Assembly (NCBI RefSeq): GCF_004766055.1
Contig: NZ_SPQR01000003.1
Location: 310,001-374,000, forward strand
Origin: Desulfosporosinus sp. Sb-LF
GTDB lineage: Bacteria; Bacillota; Desulfitobacteriia; Desulfitobacteriales; Desulfitobacteriaceae
Reading direction: 5' to 3'
DNA: 64,000 nucleotides
Shown here: positions 7,573-54,791 of the stretch, in pieces
Layout: every line of letters begins with the position of its first letter
Numbering within the stretch: the first letter of the stretch is position 1
Position numbers and translations under genes: made by a program
The notes under the pieces: generated by a model
Databases searched by the model: none
What the model saw: the letters and a program-made list of their open reading frames with translations, nothing else
What the model was told of the DNA's origin: nothing

Positions 7573-7639
7573 ACTATAAACCCCCTCTTTTTGACTACAC
7601 TCCAGATTATGCCAAAGATGATTTCTTAGTGCTTGTGCA

Positions 7640-7680
7640 AAAAATAAAAAAAGTCCCTCCGGCCATAAAACGGAAGGACT
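7640..7680 (-). terminator. terminator of the upstream small gene
   Basis: On the complement, AGTCCTTCCG pairs with CGGAGGGACT (one mismatch) and is followed by TTTTTTTATTTTTTG. It separates the gene at 7697 from the LysM gene. Confidence 0.75.
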
Positions 7681-7696
7681 AAATGATGTCGACATA

Positions 7697-7948
7697 TTAT
7701 ACTATATATTTACATATTTGTGTCAAATAGTATTTTGGCAATTTATTACTTCTTGATATCTTGAGCAAATATAAAGGGCCTAGCATTGCTACAATGATCT
7801 CAACGTTGGTATTATCATGCAGTGCAAGTTCATAAGCAGACTTTATTGAGTCAAATTCTGTTTGTCTAGTTGCTTCAGCCGAATCGAATTCCGCCTCCCA
7901 CTCTGCGACCTTAGCCTCTATGATAGGGACATAGTTTGAACTCAACAC
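7697..7948 (-). CDS. small helical protein of unknown function
   Basis: 83 residues starting at GTG 7948 with GGAG six bases upstream. Residues 8-45 are strongly charged and helical (AKVAEWEAEFDSAEATRQTE...), as in a coiled coil. The C-terminal part is more hydrophobic (VEIIVAMLGPLYLLKI). No family is recognised. A good terminator directly after the stop supports a real gene. Confidence 0.45.
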   Translation of the reverse strand: MLSSNYVPIIEAKVAEWEAEFDSAEATRQTEFDSIKSAYELALHDNTNVEIIVAMLGPLYLLKISRSNKLPKYYLTQICKYIV

Positions 7949-13139: not shown

Positions 13140-14111
13140 TCACCCTCCGATTTGTGACATTACGCGTTCACCTTGCCATGCTTCGTCATTCATATGATGC
13201 TCCGCTGGTTTATGCCATATTGCCTTTGCAAAGCGATCGAGGATCATTGCATCCGTGCTTCCATTTCGCAAACTTGTTCGCAAATCCACTTCATGTTTGC
13301 TATGTAAACAAGGTCTAAGCTTTCCGTCTGCTGTTAATCGCACACGGTTGCACGTACCACAAAAATGGCGGCTCATGGCACTAATAAAACCGATACTTCC
13401 TTTAAAACCATTTGGACGGAAATATTCCGCAGGCCCTCCACCAGTAATGTCTTGTGTTGGATGGTATTCCTGGATTTCTAAAAGTTCTTTCATTTCCTGG
13501 ATGGAGACAAAATCGTTTCGATGCTCTGAACTAATTCCAATCGGCATAAGTTCGATGAAACGAATATGAAGCGGATATTGTTTAGCTAACGTCAAGAAGT
13601 TCGGTAACTCGTCCGTATTAAACCCACGAACAACTACCACATTAATTTTAACAGGATTGAGACCCGCTTCAAGCGAACGAAAAATCCCTTGGATTACACT
13701 GGATACATCACCCCCACGGGCATTATCACGAAAACGTTCCGGATCCATCGTATCTAAACTGATATTGACGCGGTGTACTCCAGCAGCTTTCAGATCGAAG
13801 GCCATTTCCGGAAGTAGCATACCGTTGGTTGTCAGCATGAGATCCTCAACCCCTGGAAGTTGAGCTCCCTCACGTAAAAAGTCTAAAATTCCTTTCCGAA
13901 CTAATGGTTCTCCCCCCGTTATACGAAAACGGCGAAATCCTAATTGTATACTTATCTTCATGAGCCGCAGTATTTCTTCAAACGAAAGAATGGAGTCATG
14001 TGGCATCCACTGTATTCCTTCCACTGGCATACAGTATTTACAGCGTAAATTACAACGATCCGTCACTGAGATTCGTAGATAGTCAATTTGTCTAAGAAAT
14101 TGATCCTGCAT
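13140..14111 (-). CDS. moaA: GTP 3',8-cyclase MoaA (radical SAM)
   Basis: 323 residues. MoaA uses a radical-SAM [4Fe-4S] cluster, CNLRCKYC (Cys20, 24, 27), and a second C-terminal cluster in CGTCNRVRLTADGKLRPC to rearrange GTP into 3',8-cyclo-GTP, the first Moco step. GGEPLVRKG is the SAM-binding motif. The C-terminal GG tail (SQIGG) needed for activity is present. First gene of moaA-moaC-MOSC-moaB, preceded by a probable Moco riboswitch with its own terminator. Confidence 0.97.
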   Translation of the reverse strand: MQDQFLRQIDYLRISVTDRCNLRCKYCMPVEGIQWMPHDSILSFEEILRLMKISIQLGFRRFRITGGEPLVRKGILDFLREGAQLPGVEDLMLTTNGMLLPEMAFDLKAAGVHRVNISLDTMDPERFRDNARGGDVSSVIQGIFRSLEAGLNPVKINVVVVRGFNTDELPNFLTLAKQYPLHIRFIELMPIGISSEHRNDFVSIQEMKELLEIQEYHPTQDITGGGPAEYFRPNGFKGSIGFISAMSRHFCGTCNRVRLTADGKLRPCLHSKHEVDLRTSLRNGSTDAMILDRFAKAIWHKPAEHHMNDEAWQGERVMSQIGG

Positions 14112-14149
14112 TGCGACGCCTCATTTCAAGATTAAATTTTTGCAAATAA

Positions 14150-14320
14150 AAAAACCCGCGGTCTGTAAACAACCGGGGAATTTTATTCCACCTGCCGACA
14201 GACTCCTTTCCAACAGGAGATATTACAGTTTCCCATAATACCCGAGTGCCTTTAAGACACCAGTCTGGTCACCATAGCTTATGCGTTAGGGGATCCAGTT
14301 TCGGAGCGATGACGATTCAA
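14150..14320 (-). ncRNA. probable molybdenum-cofactor (Moco) riboswitch with terminator
   Basis: The moaA leader on the complement strand is highly structured. In order it reads ATCGCTCCG, GGATCCCCTAACGCATAAGC, TGGTGACCAGACTGGTG, GGCACTCGGGTATTATGGG, a CTCC-TGTTGGAAA-GGAG hairpin and GTCGGCAGG. A GC-rich terminator then follows (CCCCGGT...ACCGCGGG followed by TTTTTTT, complement of about 14152-14178), ending about 40 bases before moaA. The order and conserved purine-rich loops fit the Moco RNA motif as remembered, and the position upstream of moaA fits its known distribution. Repression of moa genes by cofactor or tungsten cofactor is inferred. Exact helices need a covariance model. Confidence 0.72.
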
Positions 14321-14464
14321 TTTAATCTGTTAATGATTAATTCGTTATAAAGAGCGGAATTCCTTTTTCTATTCAAATACATTTTATCTTTTTATTAAAA
14401 AACAATTCAGGTTCCTCTGAAAATATTGTAAACTAGAAGAAAGAAATGTTTATGGGAGGTTTAT

Positions 14465-15250
14465 ATGCCAAACGAAACGGTTACCCTTTCCATTCTTAAA
14501 GCAAACGGGCCACTACTCGAAAATATGGAAGACGCAGTAGTTCGAGAAGTTCCCTTAACCATTCACTACAACCGTGAAGAGATTGCGACGCTTTTATGCT
14601 CCCCTTCCCAAACTGAAGAACTCACCCTCGGATTTTTACTGAATGAAGGATTTATCCGTGTACCTGAAGACGTCTATGAGCTGCGCCACGATCCTTTAGA
14701 CCACTTGGTTTGGGTGGAAGGAAAACCATGTCTGTTGCAAAAAGAACTCATGAGCAAACGATTTGTTTCCGCCTGTTGTGGCAAAAGTAGAGCCTCCTTT
14801 TGCTTTGCAAATGATGTCCTGATGGTTAAACCGCTTACATCGAACCTACGCATACCACTCCAGGTAGCCTATGATTATGCTAAGTTTTTGCAGTCCTATC
14901 TTCCGCTCTTTCAAGAAACCGGCGGAATACACAGTGGCGGAGTGGGCTCTCAGGGCAATGTACTCCTAACAAGCTATGATATCGGCAGACATAATGTCTT
15001 TGATAAACTTAGTGGCAAGGCCTTTCAATCAAACTTAAATCTTGAAAACCATGTAATTTTCTTCAGTGGCCGAGTCTCTTCCGAAATACTACTCAAAGTT
15101 GCCAAAATGAAGGTGCCCATTCTCATTGCCCGTGGTGCACCTACGGACATGGCCCTCTCTCAAGCTACCGCTCTAAATATCACCGTTGTGGGGTTTGCCA
15201 GAGAGCAACGCCTTAATATTTATACCTGCCCTGAGCGAATTCTTCGCTGA
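14465..15250 (+). CDS. fdhD: formate dehydrogenase accessory sulfurtransferase FdhD
   Basis: 261 residues. FdhD passes sulfur from a cysteine desulfurase to the molybdenum or tungsten of formate dehydrogenase and binds the cofactor. Conserved parts are EVPLTIHYNREEIATLLCSP, LTLGFLLNEGFI, GGIHSGGV, the DIGRHNVFDKLSG motif and SGRVSSEILLKVAKM. At the active-cysteine loop the sequence is SACCGKS (Cys104-Cys105), a CC pair instead of the CxxC described for E. coli. ATG follows TGGGAGGTTT. It is transcribed divergently from moaA and lies 3 kb from the formate dehydrogenase it probably serves. Confidence 0.95.
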   Translation: MPNETVTLSILKANGPLLENMEDAVVREVPLTIHYNREEIATLLCSPSQTEELTLGFLLNEGFIRVPEDVYELRHDPLDHLVWVEGKPCLLQKELMSKRFVSACCGKSRASFCFANDVLMVKPLTSNLRIPLQVAYDYAKFLQSYLPLFQETGGIHSGGVGSQGNVLLTSYDIGRHNVFDKLSGKAFQSNLNLENHVIFFSGRVSSEILLKVAKMKVPILIARGAPTDMALSQATALNITVVGFAREQRLNIYTCPERILR

Positions 15251-15326
15251 TAATTTCGCTTTTCACGGTTTGAAGTCGAATCTCGCTTAGGTACCTAAAC
15301 GAGTCCAGTTAATAAGCACATTGAGT

Positions 15327-15935
15327 TTAATAGTCATTTGATGTAAGTGTCCTTTTTCGTTTAAGGATAGCAGTCCATTCTTCAGGTGTATTCACGTTAC
15401 AGAAGACGTCGCTCAAATTTGAAAAGGCTTCTAGTTCCGTTTCTCCCACATATTTCACTGAACAAGCTTGATAAAAATCAATAATCTTGAGGCAACCTGC
15501 CTCGAGATTATTTTTGATTGCGGGAAGGCAACGTCGATGATAAAAGGCGTGTAGTGGGTGGAGGCCGAATTGAAGCCGTGGAACAACAACATCATACTCC
15601 GGAATCCATTTTGCCAAAAAGCGGATGGGATCTACTTCTAAAAATGGCATATCACAGGCCACGAAAAAAACCTTATCATAGGTCGCCGCTTTTAAACCCT
15701 GATAAAGACCTTCTAAAGGGCCTCGGCCAAGAATCTCATCTAAAATGACCGGTACTTCATAGCCTGCATACAGTTCAGGCTTATTGCTGCTAATCAAAAC
15801 TTCTGCAAATACTCCTTGTAAGACAGTTAAACTCCGCTCCACTAAAGGCTTGCCCTCCAGTTCAAGGAAGGCCTTATCTTTATTCATTCGTGAGCTTTTC
15901 CCACCGGCTAATAAAATCCCGGTAGCGTTCAACAT
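15327..15935 (-). CDS. mobA: molybdenum cofactor guanylyltransferase MobA
   Basis: 202 residues from ATG 15935, chosen because AGGAG lies nine bases upstream and the protein then starts at the family N-terminus; the frame extends 45 codons further without a counterpart in MobA. It transfers GMP from GTP to molybdopterin, making the bis-MGD cofactor of the DMSO-reductase family, the class to which all molybdoenzymes in this window belong. The nucleotide-binding loop GILLAGGKSSRMNKDKAFL and the ACDMPFL metal site are intact. Confidence 0.92.
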   Translation of the reverse strand: MLNATGILLAGGKSSRMNKDKAFLELEGKPLVERSLTVLQGVFAEVLISSNKPELYAGYEVPVILDEILGRGPLEGLYQGLKAATYDKVFFVACDMPFLEVDPIRFLAKWIPEYDVVVPRLQFGLHPLHAFYHRRCLPAIKNNLEAGCLKIIDFYQACSVKYVGETELEAFSNLSDVFCNVNTPEEWTAILKRKRTLTSNDY

Positions 15936-16227
15936 TGGAAGTTGCTCCTTGGGTTTCTGTAGTGACTTAGTAATTTTTGAAGACCTCCTCGTATTCAGCA
16001 GACGAGAAGCGTGTCCGAATCCGTTCTTAATAATAGTTACGGGACTCTGATCGCATCGGTCACTTTTCATTTTTCATATACCTTAATGTACCACATCAAA
16101 CTTTTACTGTCACATTAGTAATCTTGAATAGCTCATGATACGATCGACCTGCTCTCTCCTCCTCAGGCATTTGCGTCTCTCGTATGGAAGACACCTCAGG
16201 CAGGAAAAGTGGGAATGATCTATTTAA

Positions 16228-16256
16228 TTTACACTTCTATCGTTTAGTTATATAAT
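16228..16256 (+). promoter_or_regulatory. sigma-A promoter of the thiamine operon
   Basis: TTTACA at 16228-16233 and a perfect TATAAT at 16251-16256, 17 bp apart, about 50 bp before the TPP riboswitch. Confidence 0.75.
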
Positions 16257-16308
16257 GATATTAATACTTAACTGGACAAGTATTAATGCCCACTCAACTA
16301 AATACGTC

Positions 16309-16398
16309 GTTTGCTAGGGGTGCCCTTCGGGGCTGAGATGAGGAAACTCGATCCCTTTGAACCTGATCTGGGTAATACCAGCGGAGGAAAGCTAATCG
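16309..16398 (+). ncRNA. TPP riboswitch (THI element)
   Basis: It contains the family core in order: GGGGTGCCCTTCGGGGCTGA, GATGAGG, then the conserved CTTTGAACCTGATCTGGGT and AATACCAGCGGAGGAAAGC. Binding of thiamine pyrophosphate would favour the terminator at 16422-16456 and shut down the thi genes downstream. Confidence 0.97.
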
Positions 16399-16421
16399 TT
16401 TTACTTATATTTAGGAATATA

Positions 16422-16457
16422 AATGAGAACTGCTTACCGCAGTTCTCATTTTTTTTA
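16422..16457 (+). terminator. riboswitch-controlled terminator
   Basis: AATGAGAACTGC (16422-16433) pairs exactly with GCAGTTCTCATT (16439-16450), followed by TTTTTT. It is the expression platform of the TPP riboswitch. Confidence 0.93.
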
Positions 16458-16523
16458 TAGTTTAAGCCCTCCCTGGTACCATGGCAGTAAGACGGGAACC
16501 ACAGTAAACACGTACGTGATCAA

Positions 16524-16897
16524 GTGAAAGGAAGGCTGTTCCATGCAAATTGTTCCACCCATTCGCCTGCTCAAGCACAGGTTGCTGTAAAGGATGGCAC
16601 AGATTACATCGGAGTAGGACCTTCATTTGCCACCCATACCAAAATCGATGTGTGTGATCCAGTAGGACTGGACTATTTAGACTACGTCGTCAAGAATTTG
16701 GAGATCCCGTTCGTCGCAATTGGCGGCATCAAGGAGCACAATCTGGCCGAAGTTGTTAAGGCGGGAGCTCGGACCATTGCCTTGTCACCGAGATTGTGGG
16801 CAATCTAGACATTCCGGGTAAGATAAAGAGTTTACAACGTATTATGGAGACACAGACCTATTCGCAATATGAAGCATATAGAAAGAGTGTGATTTGA
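16524..16897 (+). pseudogene. thiE: thiE remnant: N-terminally deleted and frameshifted
   Basis: The frame from 16524 encodes the C-terminal half of thiamine-phosphate synthase: NCSTHSPAQAQVAVKDG, DYIGVGPSFATHTK, IPFVAIGGIKEHN and VVKAGARTIAL. The first roughly 90 residues, with the start of the barrel and the diphosphate-binding residues, are missing. At about 16784 one base is lost. In the restored frame the end continues TEIVGNLDIPGKIKSLQRIM and stops at TGA 16895-16897, overlapping the thiC ATG. Both defects should abolish coupling of HMP-PP with the thiazole. The relic remains under TPP riboswitch control, so a functional thiE is probably elsewhere. Confidence 0.85.
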
Positions 16898-18174
16898 TGA
16901 GTACACAGATGGAACAAGCCAAAAACGGGGTCATCACAGCGGCAATGCAAACAGTCGCCGCGAAAGAAGGGCTGACGGCTGAGGAAATTAGACTTCGAGT
17001 AGCGGCGGGCAGTATTGTCATCCCAGCTAACCACAATCACACCTCTTTAAGTCCGGAGGGTGTTGGCTTGGGACTGAAGACAAAGATTAATGTCAATTTG
17101 GGTATCTCCCCAGATTGTGCCAACCTCGACAGTGAACTGGCCAAAGTACGCATGGCTCTGGACATGAAAGCTGAAGCGATTATGGATCTCAGCAACTACG
17201 GTAAAACCGTTGAATTTCGCCACCGGCTCATCGAAATGTCCCCAGCTATGATCGGTTCGGTTCCTATGTATGATGCCCTTGGTTACTTGGACAAAAAATT
17301 GGAAGACATTACACCCCAAGAGTTCTTAGCTGTGGTAGCACAGCACGCCCGAGACGGTGTAGATTTTGTAACAATCCACGCCGGCATCAACCAAGAAACC
17401 GCCCAGCACTTCCGACAGACCTCCCGCGTCACCAACATTGTCTCCCGGGGTGGTTCCCTACTGTATGCCTGGATGGAATTAACCGGGAAGGAAAACCCTT
17501 TTTATGAGTATTTTGATGATCTTCTAGATATATGCGCAGAATACGACGTTACCTTGAGCCTAGGGGATGCTTGCCGTCCTGGTAGTATCGGGGATGCTAC
17601 AGACGGAGCTCAAATTTCCGAATTGATTGTCCTTGGAGAACTAACTCAGAAGGCTTGGAAACGCAATGTTCAAGTCATGATTGAAGGACCTGGCCACGTT
17701 CCCTTGAACGAAGTTGTAGCAAATGTCCAGATAGCGAAAAAGCTATGCCACGGTGCACCCTTTTATATCTTGGGACCGTTGGTCACGGATGTTGCGCCAG
17801 GTTACGATCACATCACCAGTGCTATAGGTGGAGCTTTAGCCGCCTCCGCAGGAGCGGATTTCCTCTGCTATGTGACACCAGCTGAGCACCTTCGTCTACC
17901 TACTTTGGACGACGTGCGTGAAGGGATCGTAGCGGCCAAGATTGCAGCTCATGCCGGAGATATCGCCAAAGGAGTACCCGGCGCTGCAGCATGGGATCGA
18001 GAGATGAGCGAGGCTAGGCAGGCTTTGGATTGGACAAAAATGTTTGACCTAGCCTTGGACCGGGAAAAACCGGAGCGTTATCGTAAAGAGTCCGCCCCCG
18101 AGCACCAAGACAGCTGCACCATGTGCGGAGAAATGTGTTCGATGCGCCTCATGAACCGCATTATGGACAAATAA
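16897..18174 (+). CDS. thiC: phosphomethylpyrimidine synthase ThiC
   Basis: 425 residues. This radical-SAM enzyme converts aminoimidazole ribotide to HMP-P in thiamine synthesis. Family segments include [62 protein letters not shown] and the C-terminal cluster motif [10 protein letters not shown] (CX2CX4C). The length suits the short anaerobic-type ThiC. ATG 16897 overlaps the stop of the thiE relic (TGATGA), so it was translationally coupled to it. Expression is controlled by the TPP riboswitch upstream. Confidence 0.96.
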
Positions 18175-44336: not shown

Positions 44337-46433
44337 TCAAGAATCTCTAATAATGTGATATTTTGCCGCTTTCCTGACAACAGTAGAGGCATCAATTTTT
44401 AATTCCTTAGCCATCTGCCTAGTAGTACGATAGTTGGCATAGGCTCTTTCCAACAACTGCTTCTCCACACTTTCTACAGCATCCTTTAATGGCACTATCC
44501 CCGAAACAATAATATATGAGGAGCTTATCCCTACTTTATCCCGCAGGTAGGAAGGTAGATCCTCGCCGATGATGTTATCATCTATGGTAGTAACAACCAT
44601 TCTCTCAATAAGGTTTTCCAATTCTCTGATATTGCCGGGCCAGTCATACTGCATAAGAATATCAACCACTCCCTGTGTCATCTTTTTATTCTTTTTATAT
44701 TTGTAGTTAAATACCTCTACAAAATGTGCCACCAGTGGGGGTATATCATCTTTGCGATCGCGTAGGGGCGGGACATGCACCGGCACTACATTTAACCGAT
44801 AATATAGATCCTCGCGAAACTGCTTTTGCTGCAACATTTCTAACAGATCCCTGTTTGTAGCGGCGACAATGCGCACATCCACATTAATAAAACTTGATCC
44901 CCCGACCCGGATAATTTCTTTGTTTTGCAAAAACCTCAGCATCTTGACCTGTAAATTCAGTGGCATTTCACCAATTTCATCTAGAAATAAAGTCCCTCCG
45001 GAAGCCAGTTCAATATATCCTGATTTGCCCTCTTTTTTGGCTCCGGTAAAGGCCCCGCCATCATAGCCAAATAATTCGGATTCCAGTAAATTCTCAGGAA
45101 TAGCACCGCAGTTCACCTTAATAAACGGCTTATCTCGGCGTGGGCTATTGCTGTGAATTGTCTCGGCTATCAGTTCCTTACCGGTACCTGATTCACCGGT
45201 GATTAAAACAGTAGAATCAACTGAGGCCAACCTTACCACCATTTCCAACAGGTGCCTCATCTTGGCCGAGCTAACGACCAGGTTTTCGGAATTATCATAG
45301 CGCAGCTTCAAAGTGCGAAGCTGGGTTTCATAGTGCTGGCTTAGCCCCTGTGCTTTTTTCAGCTTGTGTTTTAACAGATTTAGTTCTGTGACATCCCTGA
45401 CATTACAGACTACCCTGATTATTTCACCACTTGCGTCGATGACTGGATTTCCCGTAGTCAGCGTAAGCTTACCGGTTTTGCTTGTCTGCATAATCGTGAT
45501 AGATTTCTTCTTCTCCAAGACATGGCAGGTTACAGGTTCAGAAATAATACCGTCTCTTCTAATGTCCTCTACACTTAGCCCCAGGTATTCATGGGCATTG
45601 ATGCCCGTCAACTGTTCAAAGGCCTTATTGTAGCGCAGGATTTTTCCTTTACCGTCAGTTATAAATAACCCGTCAAACGATGATTCCACTATAGCATCCA
45701 GTTCCTCATTTAATTCCTTCACATAGCTCAGTTCCTTGGACATCTTATCCAACTCGGAGATATCCTGGAGCACCGCAACGGCACCGATAATCTTACCGTC
45801 TTTTTTAATCGGAGAACGGTTAGATATAAAGTAGTGGTTTTTAAGTTTTACTTTCTTTAAAGTTTCAACTTTTCCGGTCTTAATTACATCCATTATGTCA
45901 CTGGTAGGAAGTACATCCAGTATATTTTTCCCGGCAACAACTTCTGCCTCAATACCCAGCAACTTGACGGCTGACAAATTCCAGACCTTAATGATGCCTT
46001 TTTCATCCACCGAAATAATTGCATTATGAGTCGAATTGATAATCGTATCAAGTTCCAGGGAAATGTTGTTGTAAGAATTAAAGAAAGCTTTGGCAATATC
46101 GCCGCGGGTAACGATCCCCACTACCCGCCCGTTTTCATCCACAACAGGCAGCCGGGGCACCGTAGCATTGACTACGTCTCCAAACTCATCCTCAGGATGG
46201 CCCGTGAGAATCTTCCGGGTCATTAAGGCTTCCACCTTCGTATTCATATCCATGCCCCTGCTTATCGCACGGTAAATATGACTCTTGGTAAAAAGGCCTA
46301 CCAATTTACCGTTTTCGTCTAATACCGGGACACCGTCTATCTTATTCGCTATAAAAATATTGACTACCTCGCAAATCCTATGATTGGGACTTATGGTTAA
46401 GAGATCAGGGGTCATTATTTCCCGAACCTTCAT
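44337..46433 (-). CDS. sigma-54-dependent activator with CBS and PAS sensor domains
   Basis: 698 residues. Two CBS domains (1-120; MTPDLLTISPNHRICEVV, MTRKILTGHPEDEFGDVV) suggest adenine-nucleotide sensing. Two PAS domains (about 125-235 and 245-360) may bind a further ligand. The AAA+ domain (about 385-620) has Walker A GESGTGKELIA and the sigma-54 contact loop GAFTGA, so it can remodel sigma-54 polymerase. The C-terminal helix-turn-helix is TRQMAKELKIDASTVVRKA. It lies directly downstream of the acyl-CoA mutase operon on the same strand. That operon has a sigma-54 promoter and dyad enhancer-like sites, so it is the likely target (inference). Confidence 0.92.
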   Translation of the reverse strand: MKVREIMTPDLLTISPNHRICEVVNIFIANKIDGVPVLDENGKLVGLFTKSHIYRAISRGMDMNTKVEALMTRKILTGHPEDEFGDVVNATVPRLPVVDENGRVVGIVTRGDIAKAFFNSYNNISLELDTIINSTHNAIISVDEKGIIKVWNLSAVKLLGIEAEVVAGKNILDVLPTSDIMDVIKTGKVETLKKVKLKNHYFISNRSPIKKDGKIIGAVAVLQDISELDKMSKELSYVKELNEELDAIVESSFDGLFITDGKGKILRYNKAFEQLTGINAHEYLGLSVEDIRRDGIISEPVTCHVLEKKKSITIMQTSKTGKLTLTTGNPVIDASGEIIRVVCNVRDVTELNLLKHKLKKAQGLSQHYETQLRTLKLRYDNSENLVVSSAKMRHLLEMVVRLASVDSTVLITGESGTGKELIAETIHSNSPRRDKPFIKVNCGAIPENLLESELFGYDGGAFTGAKKEGKSGYIELASGGTLFLDEIGEMPLNLQVKMLRFLQNKEIIRVGGSSFINVDVRIVAATNRDLLEMLQQKQFREDLYYRLNVVPVHVPPLRDRKDDIPPLVAHFVEVFNYKYKKNKKMTQGVVDILMQYDWPGNIRELENLIERMVVTTIDDNIIGEDLPSYLRDKVGISSSYIIVSGIVPLKDAVESVEKQLLERAYANYRTTRQMAKELKIDASTVVRKAAKYHIIRDS

Positions 46434-46780
46434 TTAGTTTCACATCCTAACTGATTGTATGTTAGTTATGAATTCAACATTTCTGTACCTCAGAATTATT
46501 AATTAATGTCCATTGTCATTCAAATATCGTTTGATATCTGAATAGATTCCATATTGCTTGAATTTATCCTCTTTTCAGATAAATATTTCGACTGCTGCCT
46601 CATAACTTAAGAGTCAATAGCTCTCCTCGGATTGTGCTCCGTTAAAGCTTTTGACTCTTGCAATTAAGCTGATCGGCACTTATCAATGCTATTATTAATC
46701 ATGGATTCTCGGTCAACTTGCGATAGTTAACTCTATAGAAAAACCCCCGGCATACATATAGGGATGCCAGAGGTTTATTT
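46434..46780. other. intergenic region between the activator and the mutase operon
   Basis: About 350 bp without a gene. It contains the mutase-operon terminator (46742-46775) and presumably the activator's own promoter. No sigma-54 motif was recognised here. Confidence 0.45.
46742..46775 (-). terminator. terminator of the acyl-CoA mutase operon
   Basis: On the complement, AACCTCTGGCAT pairs with ATGCCGGGGGTT (two G-U pairs) and is followed by TTTT. It lies 6 bp after the last gene of the operon. Confidence 0.8.
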
Positions 46781-46978
46781 TTAATCTTTAATTTTTATAG
46801 TAACCTTAATACTCTTGCAGCAGTCGTCATTATGCACGGCAATACAATCGGGCTTATCAAATACCTTGTATTTACCCACCGTTTCAATGATTAAATCCTC
46901 CGCTTTCAGGCCGTCTTCTTTAGGTATAAAATACATGCGGCCAAGCGGAATGATAACATTTTCTTTTAATATTCTCAT
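46781..46978 (-). CDS. 65-residue protein of unknown function in the mutase operon
   Basis: A small protein beginning MRILKENVIIPLGRMYFIP, with a CIAVHNDDCCKS segment (three cysteines and one histidine within about ten residues) and a basic beta-like end VTIKIKD. No family is recognised. The start overlaps the stop of the preceding B12-domain gene (ATGA), so the two are translationally coupled and probably act together. The Cys/His cluster could bind a metal or corrinoid, but this is speculation. It is the last gene before the operon terminator. Confidence 0.6.
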   Translation of the reverse strand: MRILKENVIIPLGRMYFIPKEDGLKAEDLIIETVGKYKVFDKPDCIAVHNDDCCKSIKVTIKIKD

Positions 46979-47400
46979 ACTATTTCTCCTCCCTCACCGG
47001 CAGTTAGCACCTGATTAATCCAGGCAATTATGCTTCCGGTGGAGGTGCCAGGCCCGAATATCTCAGTTACCGCCCCTTGAGCTTTAAGCTCCTGCCGATG
47101 CCGCTCGGGTATCAAGCCCCCTCCGAAAACCGGGACATGCCCAACATTTTGGGCAACCAGCAACTCATGCAAGCGCGGGTATAAATCCAGGTGGGAACCG
47201 TTATGCACAAATAACCCCACCAGATCAACTGCTTCCCGCAGTGCTGTTGCAGCTATTTCCTCAAGTGAACAATACAAACCGGTATAAATAACGTCCATGC
47301 CGCCCTGTTCTCTTAAACCGCGAGCTAGAATACGGATTTCCTTATCCTGATTATCCATCCCGGCCTTGGCCAGTAGAATCTTTATGGCTCTCTTATTCAT
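46975..47400 (-). CDS. B12-binding-domain paralogue lacking the cobalt-ligand histidine
   Basis: 141 residues, alignable end to end with the mutase small subunit encoded at 48479. Shared features are IKILLAKAGMD, VIYTGLYCSLEEIAATAL, EAVDLVGLFVHNGSH and PVFGGGLIPE. The family's DxHxxG motif, whose His replaces dimethylbenzimidazole as lower cobalt ligand, reads D16-N-Q18-D-K-E21 here, so both His and Gly are lost. It probably cannot hold adenosylcobalamin in the base-off/His-on way; a regulatory, structural or chaperone role is inferred. It follows meaB in the operon after a 110-bp gap. Confidence 0.85.
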   Translation of the reverse strand: MNKRAIKILLAKAGMDNQDKEIRILARGLREQGGMDVIYTGLYCSLEEIAATALREAVDLVGLFVHNGSHLDLYPRLHELLVAQNVGHVPVFGGGLIPERHRQELKAQGAVTEIFGPGTSTGSIIAWINQVLTAGEGGEIV

Positions 47401-47510: not shown

Positions 47511-48482
47511 TTAGACCTTGTTTTTATACCTGACGGCTACTTCCGCTGCCAGAGTATATGGATCTATTTCTTTTTTCAATAACTGATCAACCATTTTTTC
47601 CATTTCTCCGCCCGCATCCAGGTCATTTAATACCGGCTGGAGGATTGCTCCCCACAGAGCTTCATTAAATTCTGCAGCAGTCTTACGGCGCAAACGCTCA
47701 GACAAAAGATTATTATCCATCAGGAAGCGGTAATGATCTTCTATCTTATCGCATACAACTGACACACTCTCGGCAAACTTTTTAGGTTCCTGTACACTTT
47801 CCACCAGTAATACAGGTATCTCCCAACCACCTTCAGTAACAGACATATGAACCATATTCGAGACTTCTTTATACAGGCTCGCGGCACCGTCACGGTCTGC
47901 CTTATTAATGATAAAGATGTCTGCTATCTCCATTAAACCGGCTTTAAGAGCCTGTATTTCATCCCCCATACCGGGCACCAGGACAACGATTACAGTATGA
48001 GCATGATTAATGATTTCTACCTCTTGCTGCCCCACCCCTACAGTTTCGACGATTATGGTGTCTTTGCCCATAGCATCCATGACATGGATGGCTTCTCCCA
48101 CAGCCTTGGATATACCGCCCATAGAACCCCTGGTAGCCAAACTGCGCAAGAATACCCCTTTATCCTCAGCATGCCGCAACATACGGATTCTATCTCCCAA
48201 AAGCGCTCCCCCGGTAAAGGGGCTGGTGGGGTCTACTGCCAGAACACCGACCGTCTTGTTTCTCTGACGCCAGGAATAAACCAGTTCATCTGTCAAGGTA
48301 CTTTTACCGGCTCCCGGGGCACCGGTAATGCCTATGACATGGGCATTACCGGTTTTAGTAAAAATTTGCTGCATAGCAACATGGGTACCGGGTATCTGAT
48401 CTTCCAGGTTTCTGATGAGGCGGGAGGCTGAACGCACATTTCCTGCCAATACTTTTTGACCTAATTCTTTCATCGCACTCAC
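47511..48482 (-). CDS. meaB: MeaB/ArgK-type G-protein chaperone of B12 mutase
   Basis: 323 residues. MeaB-type GTPases load and protect adenosylcobalamin in acyl-CoA mutases and gate release of damaged cofactor. P-loop GITGAPGAGKSTLTDEL near residue 52, switch region DPTSPFTGGALLGDRIRM, VETVGVGQQEVE, and the base motif NKAD are all intact; the helical N-terminus and dimerisation C-terminus have normal length. The GTG start overlaps the stop of the mutase small-subunit gene (GTGA), so the two are coupled. Confidence 0.95.
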   Translation of the reverse strand: MSAMKELGQKVLAGNVRSASRLIRNLEDQIPGTHVAMQQIFTKTGNAHVIGITGAPGAGKSTLTDELVYSWRQRNKTVGVLAVDPTSPFTGGALLGDRIRMLRHAEDKGVFLRSLATRGSMGGISKAVGEAIHVMDAMGKDTIIVETVGVGQQEVEIINHAHTVIVVLVPGMGDEIQALKAGLMEIADIFIINKADRDGAASLYKEVSNMVHMSVTEGGWEIPVLLVESVQEPKKFAESVSVVCDKIEDHYRFLMDNNLLSERLRRKTAAEFNEALWGAILQPVLNDLDAGGEMEKMVDQLLKKEIDPYTLAAEVAVRYKNKV

Positions 48483-48883
48483 GCCCTTGGAGTTACATTT
48501 GTATTAATCCATTCCACCAGTGAATCAAGTTTGGCTCCCGGTGTAAATAATGCTTTTAGTCCAGCGTCATAAAGAGGCTGCATATCCTGCTCCGGAATAA
48601 TCCCTCCACCGATAACGCAGATATCATCGGCACCTTCCGCCTTCAAAAGATTAACGACTTGCGGGAACAGGTACCTGTGTGCACCTGATAAACAGCTTAA
48701 GCCTACAAGATCAACATCTTCCTGAATAGCAGCAGCAGCTATTTGCTCCGGAGTCTGGTGACAACCGGTATAAATTACCTCAAAGCCGGCATCCCTGAAA
48801 CACCTGGCTAACACCTTAGCCCCGCGATCATGGCCATCCAGTCCGGGTTTAGACAACAGTATACGAATTTTCCTCTCTGCCAT
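48479..48883 (-). CDS. acyl-CoA mutase small (B12-binding) subunit
   Basis: 134 residues from ATG 48883, chosen because the AAGGAGGT site overlaps the earlier ATG codons. It is a Rossmann-like cobalamin domain with the complete DGHDRG motif (His18 the cobalt lower ligand), VIYTGCHQTPEQIAAAA, LVGLSCLSGAH and VIGGGIIPEQD. Such separate small subunits occur in isobutyryl-CoA mutase (IcmB type), 2-hydroxyisobutyryl-CoA mutase and archaeal methylmalonyl-CoA mutase. It pairs with the large subunit encoded 80 bp upstream. Confidence 0.95.
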   Translation of the reverse strand: MAERKIRILLSKPGLDGHDRGAKVLARCFRDAGFEVIYTGCHQTPEQIAAAAIQEDVDLVGLSCLSGAHRYLFPQVVNLLKAEGADDICVIGGGIIPEQDMQPLYDAGLKALFTPGAKLDSLVEWINTNVTPRA

Positions 48884-48963
48884 CACATTTACCTCCTTCA
48901 ATTTTAGCGAAAAACCATTTCCATTTAAAAAAATACCGGCTACCTAAGAATTCCAACTCAATC

Positions 48964-50646
48964 TTAGTAAATGCCAGGGTCGCGGTACTCCCCAAAAACT
49001 CCCCTGTAAACATCGCAGATTTCCTGAACAGTGGCATAGTTCTTAACCGCCTCAATACAATAAGGCATAACATTTTCGCCTTTCTTACAAGCAGCCTCGA
49101 TGTCTTTAAGTGTTTCGGCAACTTTACGGCCATCGCGCTTTCTCTTAACTTCAGCCAGACGATTGAGCTGTTCTTCTTCAACGGAGTCATCTATTTCTAC
49201 GATTGGAATGTCAACCTTTTCATCTTCCTGAACATACTTGTTCACACCGATCATGACTTTTTCCTGAGCATCAATTTGCTTTTGGAATTTATAAGAAGCA
49301 TCGGAAATTTCCAGCTGCGGGAAGCCCTTCTCGATAGCAGCAACCATACCACCCATATCGTCGATTTTATGGATATATTCCCAAGCTTTTTCTTCCATTT
49401 CATTGGTCAGCGCTTCCACGAAATATGAACCAGCCAGCGGGTCAATAGTGCTGGCCACACCGGTTTCTTCAGCAATAATTTGCTGAGTCCGCAGGGCAAT
49501 TTGTACTGCATGGTCTGAAGGCAGACACAAAACCTCGTCTAGTGAGTTGGTGTGCAGTGACTGGGTGCCGCCGAGAACGCCGGCCAGAGCTTGAAGAGCA
49601 GTCCGCACCACGTTATTATAGGGCTGCTGGGCGGTAAGCGAGCAGCCGGCAGTCTGAGTATGGAATCTCATCCATAAGGAACGCGGGTCCTTGGCACCAT
49701 AACGCTCACGCATTGCCTTAGCCCAGATCCGGCGAGCAGCTCTTAATTTAGCAATTTCCTCAAAGAAATCGCTATGCGAGTTAAAGAAGAAGGATAATCT
49801 GGGAGCAAATTCATCAACCTGTAAACCTTTACGTCTGATCACGTCTTCTACATATTCCATACCGTCTCTTAACGTGAAGGCCAGTTCCTGTACAGCGGTT
49901 GACCCGGCTTCTCTGATGTGATAACCGCTGATACTGACGGTATTCCACTTGGGTACATATTTGGTCCCAAACTCTATGGTATCGCTAATTAATTTTACTG
50001 ATGGCTCGGGCGGGCACATAAAGGTTTTCTGGGCAATAAACTCTTTTAACATATCATTCTGAATGGTACCGCCGATTTTGTTCAGAGGGATTCCCTGTTC
50101 CTGGGCACAGGCAATATACATGGCCCATAATATAGTTGCAGGTGGGTTAATCGTCATAGAGGTGGTTATCTTATCCAGAGGAATCCCACTGATCAGGTCT
50201 CTGAAATCTGCGATGGAATCAATAGCCACCCCTACTTTTCCACACTCACCCCTGGCTTTGGGGGAATCAGTATCATAACCCATCAGGGTCGGGAAATCAA
50301 AGGCAGTACTCAGGCCGGTCTGGCCGGTAGCCAACAGGTATTTCCAGCGTTTATTGGTTTCAACAGCTGTACCCATACCGGAGAACATTCTGAAGGTCCA
50401 GTATTTTCCACGGTAACCGGATGGCTGGCAGCCTCTCAAATAGGGATATTGTCCCGGATAAGCTATATCCCGCTCAAAATCCATATCTTTAATGTCCTCG
50501 GGGCCGTATATTCTCTTGATTCCTAAATCGGAAACCGTGGTCCAGCTTTCTTTTTGGTCAGGGTGTTTAGCCACAATTTTTTTAACTTCGTCTTCCCATT
50601 TTTGTCTTAATGCGCTTGACTTGTTTACTAAATCTTCATTAATCAA
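48964..50646 (-). CDS. acyl-CoA mutase large subunit (methylmalonyl-CoA mutase family, isobutyryl-CoA-mutase-type pocket)
   Basis: 560 residues starting at TTG 50646 behind AGGAGGGAATAACTTT. The substrate-binding TIM barrel of the B12-dependent acyl-CoA mutases is complete, with SISGYHIREAG, RLSFFFNSHSDFFEEIAKLRAARRIW, FHTQTAGCSLTAQQPYNNVVRT and GGTQSLHTNSLDE. Two pocket residues decide substrate. The position of Tyr89 in P. shermanii methylmalonyl-CoA mutase is Phe88 here (TFRMFSGMG). The position of Arg207, which holds the free carboxylate, is Gln206 (KEFIAQKTF). Phe plus Gln is the pair reported for isobutyryl-CoA mutase. Interconversion of isobutyryl- and n-butyryl-CoA is therefore more likely than methylmalonyl/succinyl-CoA (inference). 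Confidence 0.9.
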   Translation of the reverse strand: MINEDLVNKSSALRQKWEDEVKKIVAKHPDQKESWTTVSDLGIKRIYGPEDIKDMDFERDIAYPGQYPYLRGCQPSGYRGKYWTFRMFSGMGTAVETNKRWKYLLATGQTGLSTAFDFPTLMGYDTDSPKARGECGKVGVAIDSIADFRDLISGIPLDKITTSMTINPPATILWAMYIACAQEQGIPLNKIGGTIQNDMLKEFIAQKTFMCPPEPSVKLISDTIEFGTKYVPKWNTVSISGYHIREAGSTAVQELAFTLRDGMEYVEDVIRRKGLQVDEFAPRLSFFFNSHSDFFEEIAKLRAARRIWAKAMRERYGAKDPRSLWMRFHTQTAGCSLTAQQPYNNVVRTALQALAGVLGGTQSLHTNSLDEVLCLPSDHAVQIALRTQQIIAEETGVASTIDPLAGSYFVEALTNEMEEKAWEYIHKIDDMGGMVAAIEKGFPQLEISDASYKFQKQIDAQEKVMIGVNKYVQEDEKVDIPIVEIDDSVEEEQLNRLAEVKRKRDGRKVAETLKDIEAACKKGENVMPYCIEAVKNYATVQEICDVYRGVFGEYRDPGIY

Positions 50647-50720: not shown

Positions 50721-51272
50721 CTAGTACTCGATCCCTGCTCTATCTTTAATACCTGCATTATAGTGATGTTTTACCTCGGTAACTTCACTTACCAAATCAG
50801 CCATTTCTCTCAGCTTATCGGAAGCATACCGGCCGCTTAACAATAAATCCAATTCTGCCGGCTTATTTTTAACCATCTCTAGCACTTCTTCCTCCGGAAT
50901 GAGCTTAAAGTCTAATGCCACATTAATCTCATCCAGGATGACCATGTTATATTCACCACTGGCGATGATCTCTTTGGCTTTTTCCAAACCTTGCTGGGCC
51001 ATCTCCACATCTACAGGCGCAGGATTGTTCCGCATGACAAAACTATCCAGTCCAAATTGATAGACTTGCAAGTCCGGGAGGTACTTTTCCGCGGCAATCA
51101 CCTCTCCATATTTACGTCCCTTCATAAATTGAATAATGCATACCTTGTAGCCCTGTCCAATAGCCCGTAAGGCCTGGCCAAAGGATGACGTTGTTTTGCC
51201 CTTGCCGTTACCCGTAATTACCATCACCAAACCACGCTTGGCTATGCTCGCTGTGGACTGCATCACACTCAA
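50721..51272 (-). CDS. cobO: cob(I)alamin adenosyltransferase, CobA/CobO/BtuR family
   Basis: 183 residues if started at TTG 51272, which has GAGGTG six bases upstream; GTG 51281 and ATG 51263 are alternatives. The enzyme adds adenosyl from ATP to cobalamin, supplying the mutase cofactor. The P-loop ITGNGKGKTTSSFGQALRAIG, IIQFMKGRKYGE, LDEINVALDF and the C-terminal REMADLVSEVTEVKHHYNAGI are family hallmarks. First gene of the operon and closest to the sigma-54 promoter; its place beside the mutase makes cofactor supply inducible together with the enzyme. Confidence 0.93.
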   Translation of the reverse strand: MSVMQSTASIAKRGLVMVITGNGKGKTTSSFGQALRAIGQGYKVCIIQFMKGRKYGEVIAAEKYLPDLQVYQFGLDSFVMRNNPAPVDVEMAQQGLEKAKEIIASGEYNMVILDEINVALDFKLIPEEEVLEMVKNKPAELDLLLSGRYASDKLREMADLVSEVTEVKHHYNAGIKDRAGIEY

Positions 51273-51411
51273 TGTATTCACCTCTTTTCTTTACTCTTCC
51301 CCGTCAAGTCAAAGGGCAGCCGAAGGTAGGGGGGGTTCCACTTATCAGACTTTGTGTTGAAATCAATTTGAATCAAATTAATTTCGCATCTCTTACTCCT
51401 TTATATAGCAT

Positions 51412-51428
51412 AGCAAGAATGATGCCAA
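51412..51428 (-). promoter_or_regulatory. sigma-54 (-24/-12) promoter of the mutase operon
   Basis: The complement reads TTGGCATCATTCTTGCT: GG and GC separated by exactly ten bases, close to the TTGGCACG-N4-TTGCA consensus. It lies about 140 bp before the adenosyltransferase gene, in the right orientation, and beside a sigma-54 activator gene. Confidence 0.8.
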
Positions 51429-51501
51429 TATCAAATAATTCAGAATTATGCCTAAATACCCGTATCAGAATAACTTAGAAAAGAAAACTAAGTCTAATAT
51501 C

Positions 51502-51517
51502 GTTGCATTACTGCAAC
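51502..51517. promoter_or_regulatory. dyad enhancer site 1 (GTTGCA-N4-TGCAAC)
   Basis: GTTGCATTACTGCAAC is a perfect 6-4-6 dyad about 80 bp upstream of the sigma-54 promoter, the usual place for an activator site. GTTGCAAC at 51538-51545 is a further partial match. Confidence 0.7.
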
Positions 51518-51696
51518 ACAATAACCTTCTATTGCCTGTTGCAACTTTGTTATAGTAAGGCAGTTCAGCTTGCATCTGTCGTAATTTTCAGATTATTTTG
51601 ATGAAAGAGGTCAAACCACCAATATTTTTATCTCCCCACCCTGTTTCATATAGCACAGACTTGTTTTAATCTCCATGTTGCATATTTGAAGATACT

Positions 51697-51712
51697 GTTG
51701 CTATATTGCAAC
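51697..51712. promoter_or_regulatory. dyad enhancer site 2 (GTTGCT-N4-TGCAAC)
   Basis: GTTGCTATATTGCAAC has the same 6-4-6 geometry as site 1 with one change. A half-site GTTGCA lies 20 bp away at 51677. Together they suggest multiple activator dimers. Confidence 0.6.
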
Positions 51713-51729
51713 AAATTATTGACTTTCCG

Positions 51730-51945
51730 TCCTTAATTTGATTAACCCCGCCTTTGCCACAACCCCTTTTTGGTAAGCATGGCGATGCTCCATCATTTCA
51801 GTGACAGTATCAGCAATTTCTAAGAACTCTGGAGCACTGCAGAAATCCGACCTTTTGGTTATGTCCCAGCGCTCTCATACTTAGCCCTAAGGCCGCAGTA
51901 GTCCTGCCCTTACCATTTCCGGTATTAATCAGAATGAGTCCTGAA
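51730..51945 (-). pseudogene. internally deleted cob(I)alamin adenosyltransferase relic
   Basis: The complement encodes [26 protein letters not shown] (in two joined parts, [12 protein letters not shown] and [14 protein letters not shown]), the P-loop end of a CobO/BtuR enzyme. It then jumps, in another frame, to [30 protein letters not shown], its C-terminal end. The central roughly 100 residues are gone and there is no start codon. It is a different sequence from the intact copy at 50721, so the locus once carried two adenosyltransferase genes. Confidence 0.75.
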
Positions 51946-52631: not shown

Positions 52632-53216
52632 GTATCCTTTACAGAAGTCTCGATCTCTTATAACGTCCAGTCCGTCAGCCCCGCTTCTTAAAGCAGAACT
52701 GATTCTGCACGATCATACCAAAGAGGGAGTAAGAACCTACATTTAAGTAGGTTCTTACTCCCTCTTTGGTGGAAAAAACGGTATTTCTTCTCGGCTATTT
52801 AAACAAACTATTGGCTTCTACAGGTCTAACTATTATTCATTTGTGTTTCCCTTTTCCACACCTTGAACTTCAGAACGCCTTTAGTATAGCCCTCCGTCCT
52901 TTAACACGCTACTAAGTTTGGAGTTCGAGACAATTTCCATCACTTTCTGTCTATAATATCCTCGACAGGTGGACCAATAAATTCAGCGGCTGCTAGGTTA
53001 CAATAACAAATGAAGTCTTGACGTTTCCATAATCTATGTCACTACTGCAAGATCCTCTGACTTTGTTGCTACATGAGATGACCCTGATAAGTTGCTTCTA
53101 AAAATAAAGGCTTCAGAAATTCCTCTTATGTTTCCGACCCTGTAAAAAGTTGTTATACTCAAGTATATAACATGTTTGTCAATTCTAAAATGTATTATAC
53201 AAGACGAGGTGGAATA
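52632..53216. other. intergenic region upstream of the PucR-type regulator
   Basis: Apart from the inverted repeat at 52717-52770 no structure or ORF was recognised. TGTAAA/TATATA with 17-bp spacing at about 53141-53169 is a possible promoter for the regulator gene. Confidence 0.4.
52717..52770. terminator. perfect 24-bp hairpin, probable bidirectional terminator
   Basis: 52717-52740 and 52747-52770 are exact reverse complements (ACCAAAGAGGGAG... / ...CTCCCTCTTTGGT) around ATTTAA. Only a short A/T-run flanks it. It follows the permease relic. Confidence 0.7.
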
Positions 53217-54791
53217 ATGGATAACCCAAATCTACCCCAAGCAATCACTGTCGACCGACTTCAGGAGGCATTATCTTTGCAAGCCCTCGGCGGCACGAAC
53301 GCCTTAGCCCAGAGCTTTTCTCAGTTGTGCATTCGATCGATCCATTTTACAGGAATTAAAACCGTCTCCCTACCCTTTGTTGGGGAAGCCGTAACTTTAG
53401 AGCCCAGCGATGGGTCTATTTCTCTGACTCTAAACATTTCAAATGAAACGTTTACTTTGCTTTTCTCACAAAAGGCCCCCTCTTCCTGGCCAATATTTTG
53501 TGAGAGGGCAACGGATTGGTTAGATCGTGAACTGGGTCGTATCCTTATGGCAAGTGAACGATATTCACAGATGATCGCTGAGCACTTAACAAATGGAAAT
53601 GGGTTTTCATTTCTAAACAACTTACAAGAGATTTTCGAGTGTGATATCTTCCTTATAAATAAGCAACTCGAAGTTCTAGGATGGGCCGGGGGAAAATCAC
53701 TTCCCTTAGATCCCATCTCTTTCAAATCCCCAAAATCGCACGCATCACCTAATCTACCCTCACCCTTCGCTCCACTCTATTCAGGGCAATGGACTGAGAA
53801 AGGCTACCAAACTATTCCCCTAACTTGGTGTCCGCTTTCAGGGTCGAAAGGAGTCTTGGGCTTCCTTGGGTTAGCAGCAAATAAAATGAATATGGGAAGT
53901 ATCGAACAATTCTTCCTTCAGAAAACCGCCACTTTAATCTTACTCGAACTTGTTAAAACGCAGAGCATCCAGGACAGCGAACGCCAACACCATAGGGATT
54001 TTCTCTTTGATTTACTTTATAATAATTTTGATTCCCTTGAAGTGATCATTTCACGAGGAAAATTGTGGGGATGGGATTTTGCTAAACCTCACTTTGTCGT
54101 GGTTGGGGAAATACCTAGCTATGATCCAGATTCAGCCGAACGCGAACTTTTTGAAGAATTATTTACCGAAATGACCACGATTTTGCATAACCGCCACCCT
54201 AAGACAATTTGTCTTGAACGTAATGGTCAAGTCGTTTTCCTCTTCCCGCTGGAGGACATGCTTCCTCAATCAGAGTGGCACGACAAAGCATCCCAGCTTC
54301 TTGAGCCAATTATGGAGCAAGCCAAGCATTTCCCCGAAAAACAATCGTTTCACTACGGTCTTGGTAACTTGTATAACTCTGCACGCTACATACACCGGAG
54401 CTTTCAAGAAGCGAGGACAGCACTCGAATTAGGTCAACTATTTAATAGCCCCGATCGTTTAGTCTCTTTTCAGGACCTTGGCATCATGCGTTTATTACAC
54501 CGCTTAGATCGTCAGGAACTAGAAGACTATCGCTCTGAAGTTCTCGCACCTCTCCTGAAATTTGATAAGGAAAGCAATCTCGCTCTTGAAGAAACATTAT
54601 TAGCTTATTTCTCCTGCAACACAGACCTAAACGCTGCGGGCGAAAAACTTTACCTTCATCCGAACACCCTCCGCTACCGTCTCAAAAAAGCCTCAGAGAT
54701 CTTAGATCGTGATTTATCTTCCCTGGAAAACCAAGTTAATCTTTTTCTTGCACTTAAGATCGGTCGGATAAAAACGTTATGGTCAGACTAA
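53217..54791 (+). CDS. PucR/CdaR-family transcriptional regulator
   Basis: 524 residues from ATG 53217, chosen because GAGGTGG lies four bases before it. The C-terminal 60 residues are the family's helix-turn-helix (ETLLAYFSCNTDLNAAGEKLYLHPNTLRYRLKKASEIL). The middle (about 270-430) is a CdaR GGDEF-like region (HRDFLFDLLYN, HFVVVGEIP, FHYGLGNLYNSARYIHRSFQEARTALELG). The N-terminal 200 residues are a sensory part without a clear family match. Such proteins respond to small metabolites. Its position directly upstream of the TorD-molybdoenzyme operon on the same strand suggests it controls that operon (inference). Confidence 0.88.
   Translation: MDNPNLPQAITVDRLQEALSLQALGGTNALAQSFSQLCIRSIHFTGIKTVSLPFVGEAVTLEPSDGSISLTLNISNETFTLLFSQKAPSSWPIFCERATDWLDRELGRILMASERYSQMIAEHLTNGNGFSFLNNLQEIFECDIFLINKQLEVLGWAGGKSLPLDPISFKSPKSHASPNLPSPFAPLYSGQWTEKGYQTIPLTWCPLSGSKGVLGFLGLAANKMNMGSIEQFFLQKTATLILLELVKTQSIQDSERQHHRDFLFDLLYNNFDSLEVIISRGKLWGWDFAKPHFVVVGEIPSYDPDSAERELFEELFTEMTTILHNRHPKTICLERNGQVVFLFPLEDMLPQSEWHDKASQLLEPIMEQAKHFPEKQSFHYGLGNLYNSARYIHRSFQEARTALELGQLFNSPDRLVSFQDLGIMRLLHRLDRQELEDYRSEVLAPLLKFDKESNLALEETLLAYFSCNTDLNAAGEKLYLHPNTLRYRLKKASEILDRDLSSLENQVNLFLALKIGRIKTLWSD

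Follow-up and report, generated by a model that had tools for sequence, protein, structure and literature searches.

A probable sigma-54 switch for a B12-dependent acyl-CoA mutase operon: conserved dyad sites track a CBS-PAS-PAS activator

Introduction

We analysed a 64,000-nucleotide stretch of Desulfosporosinus sp. Sb-LF (contig NZ_SPQR01000003.1, positions 310,001 to 374,000; hereafter the window) that carries an operon for a B12-dependent acyl-CoA mutase, beginning with the adenosyltransferase gene cobO, and, just after it, the gene of a sigma-54 activator with paired CBS domains, two PAS domains, an AAA+ domain and a helix-turn-helix (HTH). Our comparisons make it very probable that the operon is switched by this dedicated activator through conserved dyad sites before cobO. 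These sites cluster ahead of a -24/-12 promoter sequence, are conserved in the loci where the activator gene adjoins the operon, and were lost together with that gene in one Desulfosporosinus locus. Methane formation has a bottleneck in the syntrophic oxidation of butyrate and isobutyrate, and we found no transcriptional switch for this step in the open literature.

Results

A sigma-54 promoter and clustered dyads precede cobO

An earlier sequence-only reading of this DNA had proposed a sigma-54 promoter, two dyads and two half-sites (at 51538 and 51677) upstream of cobO, and we found every one of these elements where that reading had placed it (Table 1). Between them, the two strands of the window contained a single perfect match (0 mismatches) to TGGCAY-N5-TTGCW, the promoter TTGGCATCATTCTTGCT. 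When up to two mismatches were allowed the window held 61 matches against a shuffle mean of 57, so that only near-perfect promoter matches are informative. In the genome of 4.27 Mb the perfect dyad GTTGCA-N4-TGCAAC is unique to the proximal site GTTGCATTACTGCAAC; at up to two mismatches there were five in the window compared to 2.3 expected (12 of 100 shuffles reached five), and the best two of the five were GTTGCATTACTGCAAC and the distal dyad GTTGCTATATTGCAAC. The shorter core GTTGC-N6-GCAAC was found four times in the whole genome, twice in the region upstream of the mutase operon. Its backwards control was found six times, which puts the bare count at background and leaves only the clustering as informative.

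The distal dyad aligns across four Desulfosporosinus loci, and its separation from a degenerate third dyad, 20 bp, falls within the 19-21 bp at which dyad pairs recur among related promoters. The possible weak half-site GTTGCAAC is also present in L086/L143. Both complete dyads lie at looping distance from the promoter (89 and 284 nt); most enhancer sites are reported at 100-250 bp in the available part of Nie et al. 2019 (PMC6615313). We combined the elements into one pattern (dyad core, 63-93 nt, TGGC-N7-TTGC), which matched the window genome once, at the mutase operon, with no match for the backwards control. A single-operon regulon is therefore likely, although weaker sites would escape the pattern. 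Over 60 genomes of relatives there were 14 matches against one for the control, four of the 14 being the mutase operon promoter (in three genomes). Over 63 genomes of the Syntrophomonas class there were 21 against one, 10 of them beside activators of the same family as judged by coordinates. In both sets many of the remaining matches may be chance hits. The window genome has one match for rpoN.

A remnant of a second cobO-type gene was noticed upstream of the promoter, at about 51837-51941 on the minus strand (49% over 35 residues), as if the 5' end of the operon had once been duplicated or rebuilt.

The sites track the activator gene across orthologous mutase loci

We collected orthologues with at least 77% identity over the mutase large subunit, giving 30 loci including the window, from five of 60 relatives' genomes and 11 of a phylum sample of 398 (the window genome included in each) and 21 of the 63 Syntrophomonas-class genomes. 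An adjacent activator gene was present in 11 loci, the window among them (in L159 the gene runs into a contig edge). Three loci were set aside: L141, treated below, and two at contig edges, L157 (10/12 dyad, 11/12 promoter) and L167 (neither site). The sequence-only reading would have been contradicted by a failure of either the dyads or the -24/-12 element to be conserved in orthologous loci. A dyad and a sigma-54 site matching at least 10/12 positions, both within 500 nt of cobO, were conserved in 11/11 loci with the activator, whereas only one (L148) of the 16 without it had both. Two of these 16, L155 and L169, are second mutase copies lacking cobO and were scanned before mutA. The arrangement was also preserved: a dyad stood 70-125 nt before the promoter in 10/11 activator loci (at 79-123 nt in these) compared to 1/16 of the others, with 0.01 per set in shuffles.

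Palindromes of the 5+5 type were also enumerated with no prior motif. GTTGC-N6-GCAAC ranked first in the activator loci (8/11), the best palindrome in 100 shuffles reaching three. With Desulfosporosinus removed, TGTTG-N8-CAACA came first (5/7) and GTTGC-N6-GCAAC second (4/7), again with a shuffle best of three. General sigma-54 control of the mutase paralogues was also considered: 25 paralogous loci gave no 11/12 site in the stretches of up to 1500 nt scanned before mutA, but 17 of these stretches start within cobO and may not reach the promoter of the operon.

These loci are related, and three facts are less exposed to the objection of kinship: gene order, loss in L141, and specificity among activators. 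The activator gene lies downstream of the operon in four Desulfosporosinus loci and upstream of cobO in the other seven, with the dyads before cobO in all. L141, also from Desulfosporosinus, has kept the operon at 93% DNA identity, yet homology breaks off about 86 nt before cobO and returns only on the far side of the dyads, and of the activator nothing is left but a 25-codon remnant. In this genome (91% complete) no activator match at an E value of 1e-130 or better exceeds 46% identity. A further loss is possible in L166, whose branch has weak support. Finally, a dyad of 11/12 or better was found in the flanks examined of 17/21 activators of the family but of 0/55 other sigma-54 activators retrieved by the same search; neither set includes the partial loci L020, L025, L032 and L037.

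Domains of the activator

The sequence-only reading had described a CBS-PAS-AAA+ activator with an intact GAFTGA loop just after the operon, and domain matches and sequence bear this out. The second CBS domain retains TRGD in 10/11 mutase-type activators (CRGD in L156), and the first reads TKSH. A structure model of residues 1-385 had a mean pLDDT of 84.6 and a pTM of 0.43, and its PAS matched several sensors. The CBS pair of the model resembles MJ0100 with methylthioadenosine and S-adenosylmethionine (rank 33, rmsd 1.7, 34% identity), which we treat as a lead only. A plasmid search with the activator returned 546 records below 60% identity and none close.

The recognition segment, TTRQMA-x2-L-x-(V/I)-(D/N)-AST-(V/I)-VRKAAKY, is largely common to the mutase-type activators and to activators of a butyrate type described below, and it differs in L214, L216 and L219, all of which are without dyads. 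For the second PAS domain (PAS2), median identity was 80% when the Desulfosporosinus activators were compared with the other mutase-type ones, 69% within the 22 sisters and 58% from the mutase-type to the sister group; the AAA domain gave 78, 72 and 71%. The greater divergence of PAS2 than of AAA between groups fits substrate-specific sensing by PAS2.

Sister activators adjoin butyrate-oxidation genes

Full-length sister activators (54-66% identity) were found in Syntrophomonas-type genomes, including that of S. wolfei subsp. methylbutyratica, directly upstream of genes for thiolase, 3-hydroxybutyryl-CoA dehydrogenase, crotonase, acyl-CoA dehydrogenase and CoA-transferase, with not every one of the five gene types in every locus. 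Most of these activator genes are followed by the same dyads, in many cases a pair spaced 19-21 bp, with one dyad about 91-117 nt before a sigma-54 site. Among 22 such regions, picked for fatty-acid genes nearby, 12 had a dyad 70-125 nt before a promoter (0.00 in shuffles), and the prior-free enumeration again placed GTTGC-N6-GCAAC first (14/22; best palindrome in 100 shuffles, four). With this shared DNA-reading helix, the sister activators probably control butyrate beta-oxidation operons through the same dyads.

That control may be less direct than at the mutase operon, because L015 has hairpins that we read as terminators around a gene for a zinc-ribbon protein of about 60 residues (FRCxxCxKLLGKYR...EIKCPRCG) lying between the sigma-54 site and thiolase (L015:12550-13375). 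The gene was seen in four of six loci examined (also L012, L016 and L018), and the region had no Rfam match in L015, L012, L018, L014 or L009. The window genome's own thl-bcd-ctfAB genes have a separate CBS-PAS-PAS activator (36% identity) and a 12/12 sigma-54 site with no 10/12 dyad.

Two sets of sensor domains, each next to its own kind of operon, would read the same sites, which offers a route to the inducer, and the combination of activator family, DNA site and promoter can be tested genome by genome. A broader proposal is that CBS-PAS-PAS sigma-54 activators with the shared enhancer TGTTGCA-N4-TGCAACA form the main switch for anaerobic oxidation of (iso)butyrate in syntrophs generally and in some sulfate reducers. 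One branch would govern isobutyryl-CoA mutase and its sisters thl-hbd-crt-bcd-ctfAB; the CBS pair would sense the energy state of the cell or an adenosyl ligand, and the divergent PAS2 the substrate. We offer this tentatively, as somewhat short of an even bet.

A separate arrangement was observed in L265 (genome G003), where a different mutase paralogue (56%) is accompanied by its own PrpR_N-type sigma-54 activator with an 11/12 sigma-54 site between them (13154-17405); acyl-CoA mutases may thus have come under sigma-54 control on more than one occasion. The same locus has a dense cluster of GTTGC/GCAAC half-sites at 7590-7708, followed by a 12/12 sigma-54 site before an open frame at 7735.

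The mutase is probably of the isobutyryl-CoA type

Alignment to 1req and 4r3u placed Phe (F88) and Gln (Q206) at the positions of the methylmalonyl-CoA mutase Tyr and Arg, and the F88, A115 and Q206 letters were conserved in 30/30 orthologous loci. Phe and Gln in place of Tyr89 and Arg207 of methylmalonyl-CoA mutase are, we presume, the mark of an isobutyryl-CoA mutase. The protein scored 638 bits against the methylmalonyl-CoA mutase model NF006944 (cut-off 876; one chain of a split enzyme) and 338 bits against the model of the fused mutase IcmF, NF045497 (cut-off 1500), the genes being separate here. The window genome also has a butyryl-CoA-dehydrogenase-type gene with 79% identity to that of S. 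wolfei subsp. methylbutyratica. Syntrophothermus lipocalidus, which degrades isobutyrate, is reported in the available part of PMC5017805 to have an equal gene set, Slip_0757-0760, as its isobutyryl-CoA mutase cluster; the available part of PMC6687939 describes similar genes in Syntrophomonas BUT1. Term searches of the main texts found no 'sigma' in the former, no 'sigma-54' in the latter and no 'CBS' in either. Together these features suggest that the operon probably encodes an adenosylcobalamin-dependent isobutyryl-CoA mutase, with which this anaerobic soil bacterium would convert isobutyrate to butyrate.

Features of the operon and its surroundings

The coordinates are collected in Table 1. 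Five proteins compared with L003 were 92-98% identical, in keeping with the genus Desulfosporosinus. For cobO, the start at TTG 51272 is likelier than GTG 51281, which falls within the likely Shine-Dalgarno sequence. The second B12-binding-domain protein may be a decaying or repurposed B12 subunit: its His motif has altered letters in the window and in L141, L143 and several further loci, is intact (DSHDRG) in L145, L149, L158-L160 and L167, and the protein was not detected in the L142 and L144 stretches. The 65-residue frame at the operon end was also found at L141:10174-10371. The hairpin and U run between operon and activator gene, absent from the listing of a simple consensus terminator scan, indicate that the activator is probably transcribed separately. 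Control of the operon by a cobalamin riboswitch was considered and rejected, with no Rfam match there at gathering thresholds when the whole window was scanned and a leader fold similar to shuffles (z 0.10). Elsewhere in the window, a TPP riboswitch at 16306-16406 (+) and a molybdenum/tungsten cofactor riboswitch at 14185-14318 (-) were found at Rfam gathering score.

Table 1. Features of the mutase locus and of related loci (positions in the window unless a locus is named).
Feature	Position	Strand	Evidence or remark
sigma-54 (-24/-12) promoter TTGGCATCATTCTTGCT	51412..51428	-	GG-N10-GC; 12/12 match
proximal enhancer dyad GTTGCATTACTGCAAC	51502..51517	none	89 nt upstream of promoter (start to start)
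distal enhancer dyad GTTGCTATATTGCAAC	51697..51712	none	extended form TGTTGC-N6-GCAACA; 284 nt from promoter
degenerate third dyad (9/12)	51677..51692	-	20 bp from distal dyad; includes half-site GTTGCA 51677-51682
GTTGCAAC, possible weak enhancer half-site	51538..51545	none	also in L086/L143
activator, CBS-CBS-PAS-PAS-AAA+-HTH_50	44337..46433	-	GAFTGA intact; CBS, PAS, Sigma54_activat, AAA-lid, HTH_50 matches
cobO/btuR-type ATP:corrinoid adenosyltransferase, first operon gene	50721..51281	-	Pfam PF02572 208 bits; NCBIfam NF004637
mutA, acyl-CoA mutase large subunit, predicted isobutyryl-CoA-mutase type (F88, A115, Q206)	48964..50646	-	Pfam PF01642; alignments to 4r3u, 1req
mutB, B12-binding small subunit	48479..48901	-	DGHDRG intact; profile matches
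meaB-type GTPase chaperone	47511..48482	-	Pfam PF03308; NCBIfam TIGR00750 above cut-off
second B12-binding-domain protein	46975..47400	-	cobalamin His motif lost (DNQDKE); profile match
65-aa open frame, operon end	46781..46978	-	read from sequence
terminator hairpin between operon and activator gene	46741..46776	-	fold -18.5 kcal/mol, z -3.1, then U run
PucR-type regulator gene	53172-54791		Pfam match
sister CBS-PAS-PAS activators upstream of thl-hbd-crt-bcd-ctfAB-type genes	L015:9992-19390; L009, L011-L014, L016-L019, L202, L204, L205, L207, L211, L213, L215		most with dyads and sigma-54 site

Discussion

Proposed mechanism

In the mechanism that we propose, sigma-54 RNA polymerase would wait at 51428-51412 while the CBS-PAS-PAS activator binds the dyads at 51502 and 51697 and the weaker copies. 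The activator would oligomerise once its N-terminal domains register a signal, our guess being that PAS2 detects an acyl-CoA or a carboxylate and the CBS pair an adenine nucleotide. DNA looping would then allow it to reach sigma-54 through GAFTGA, and transcription would start. The operon would thereby supply the mutase together with its own cofactor-adenosylating and cofactor-loading proteins. All the parts of the circuit named in the sequence-only reading are present, although its description as complete and inducible goes beyond the evidence.

Several observations weigh against this mechanism. Mapped on the mutase tree, the activator label changes only three times (27 rows) or four (28 rows including L141), and the Fisher value of 1.4e-5 overstates the case because the loci are related and the independent events few. 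Two contrasts are independent and well supported, and over random pairings the dyad-promoter pair went in the same direction in 1.8 of the 2. The 70-125 nt spacing limit was chosen after the site scan had been seen, the dyads of L149 lie 243 nt from its promoter, and the promoter matches of L156 and L158 are 10/12 and singly not significant (shuffle p 0.06 and 0.08). L141 has a 12/12 sigma-54-like site in its non-homologous sequence with no dyad, and L201 and L203, at 72% and 65% identity to the activator, carry the same recognition helix although the 900 nt that follow their genes hold no 10/12 dyad.

Alternative explanations

Some of the evidence could be taken to mean that a different regulator, either a repressor or a second activator, binds the dyads and that the adjacent CBS-PAS activator has its targets elsewhere. 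L148 holds a weak dyad-promoter pair with no neighbouring activator gene, and a PucR-type regulator gene lies at 53172-54791. However, a pucR gene (79% identical) occurs in the stretch from L141, which lacks the dyads, and none was found in the 14 kb stretches of L142-L144, which have them, while the dyads follow the activator gene across loci, vanish with it in L141 and recur beside sisters with the same recognition helix. We consider this explanation very unlikely. We give as little credence to transcription of the operon from a housekeeping sigma promoter, with the -24/-12 match a relic or chance. A sigma-70-like 9/12 match, TTGATA-N16-TATGCT with an extended TG, does overlap the sigma-54 site at 51434-51407, and the absence of the dyad-promoter pair from 15 of the 16 loci without an adjacent activator implies that other loci can express the operon by different means. 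Against this, matches of the sigma-70 kind are about as frequent as expected by chance (22 in 10 kb compared to 20), and the sigma-54 consensus recurs at similar dyad spacing in distant genomes.

A further alternative concerns what the switch serves: the mutase may act on another acyl-CoA, such as pivalyl-CoA/isovaleryl-CoA or 2-hydroxyisobutyryl-CoA, and the regulon may belong to a different pathway. The best solved relative of the enzyme is a 2-hydroxyisobutyryl-CoA mutase (574 bits), but the Ile and Asp of that enzyme (4r3u) are absent from 30/30 loci, which have F and A instead. IcmF is reported to accept pivalyl-CoA/isovaleryl-CoA as well (available part of PMC10481361), and the F and Q letters are identical in four 59%-type paralogues examined. 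Against this stand the matching gene set in an isobutyrate-degrading syntroph and the position of the sister activators beside butyrate oxidation operons, and we regard a different substrate as unlikely. Control of a probable isobutyryl-CoA mutase operon by the CBS-PAS-PAS activator through its dyads is the reading that we prefer.

Comparison with known systems

CrbR and other Clostridium butyrate-gene activators are described for butyrate synthesis in the available part of PMC6615313. Swol_0456 of Syntrophomonas wolfei is reported only from butyrate-grown cells in the available part of PMC4324140, which names no target or binding site for it. Genome G158, which we take to be that of Syntrophothermus lipocalidus, has no adjacent activator and no 10/12 dyad or sigma-54 site before the operon. 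Nie et al. 2019 reconstructed 39 Clostridiales activator groups, and the available part of their report lists CBS domains among clostridial activators and describes a general TGT-spacer-ACA class of sites (PMC6615313); its Table 1 contains no mutase or cobO target and no Syntrophomonas. In a term search of the main text of a 2025 survey (PMC12316311, available part), 'mutase' did not occur.

The sequence-only reading had suggested that sigma-54 control of an acyl-CoA mutase by a CBS-containing activator was undescribed. This was right in part: we found no description of the mutase-operon regulon in the open literature (most subscription papers lay outside the coverage of our search), whereas the CBS-PAS architecture of sigma-54 activators was already known from the NCBIfam PrdR model and Nie et al. 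2019. PrdR, the sigma-54 activator of the proline reductase genes in Clostridioides (NF041552), is the best NCBIfam match of our activator at 545 bits, below the model's cut-off of 795 bits. The model covers the CBS stretch of the activator (2-118 with 7-126 of 577) as well as PAS-AAA-HTH, and the plan of CBS pair, PAS, AAA and HTH is common to both. PrdR sites belong to the TGT/ACA inverted-repeat class (Nie et al. 2019, PMC6615313, available part). The activator differs from PrdR in having one PAS domain more and in its predicted target, a B12 mutase operon rather than proline reductase. PrdR is the closest named activator family, and the type of circuit is already known.
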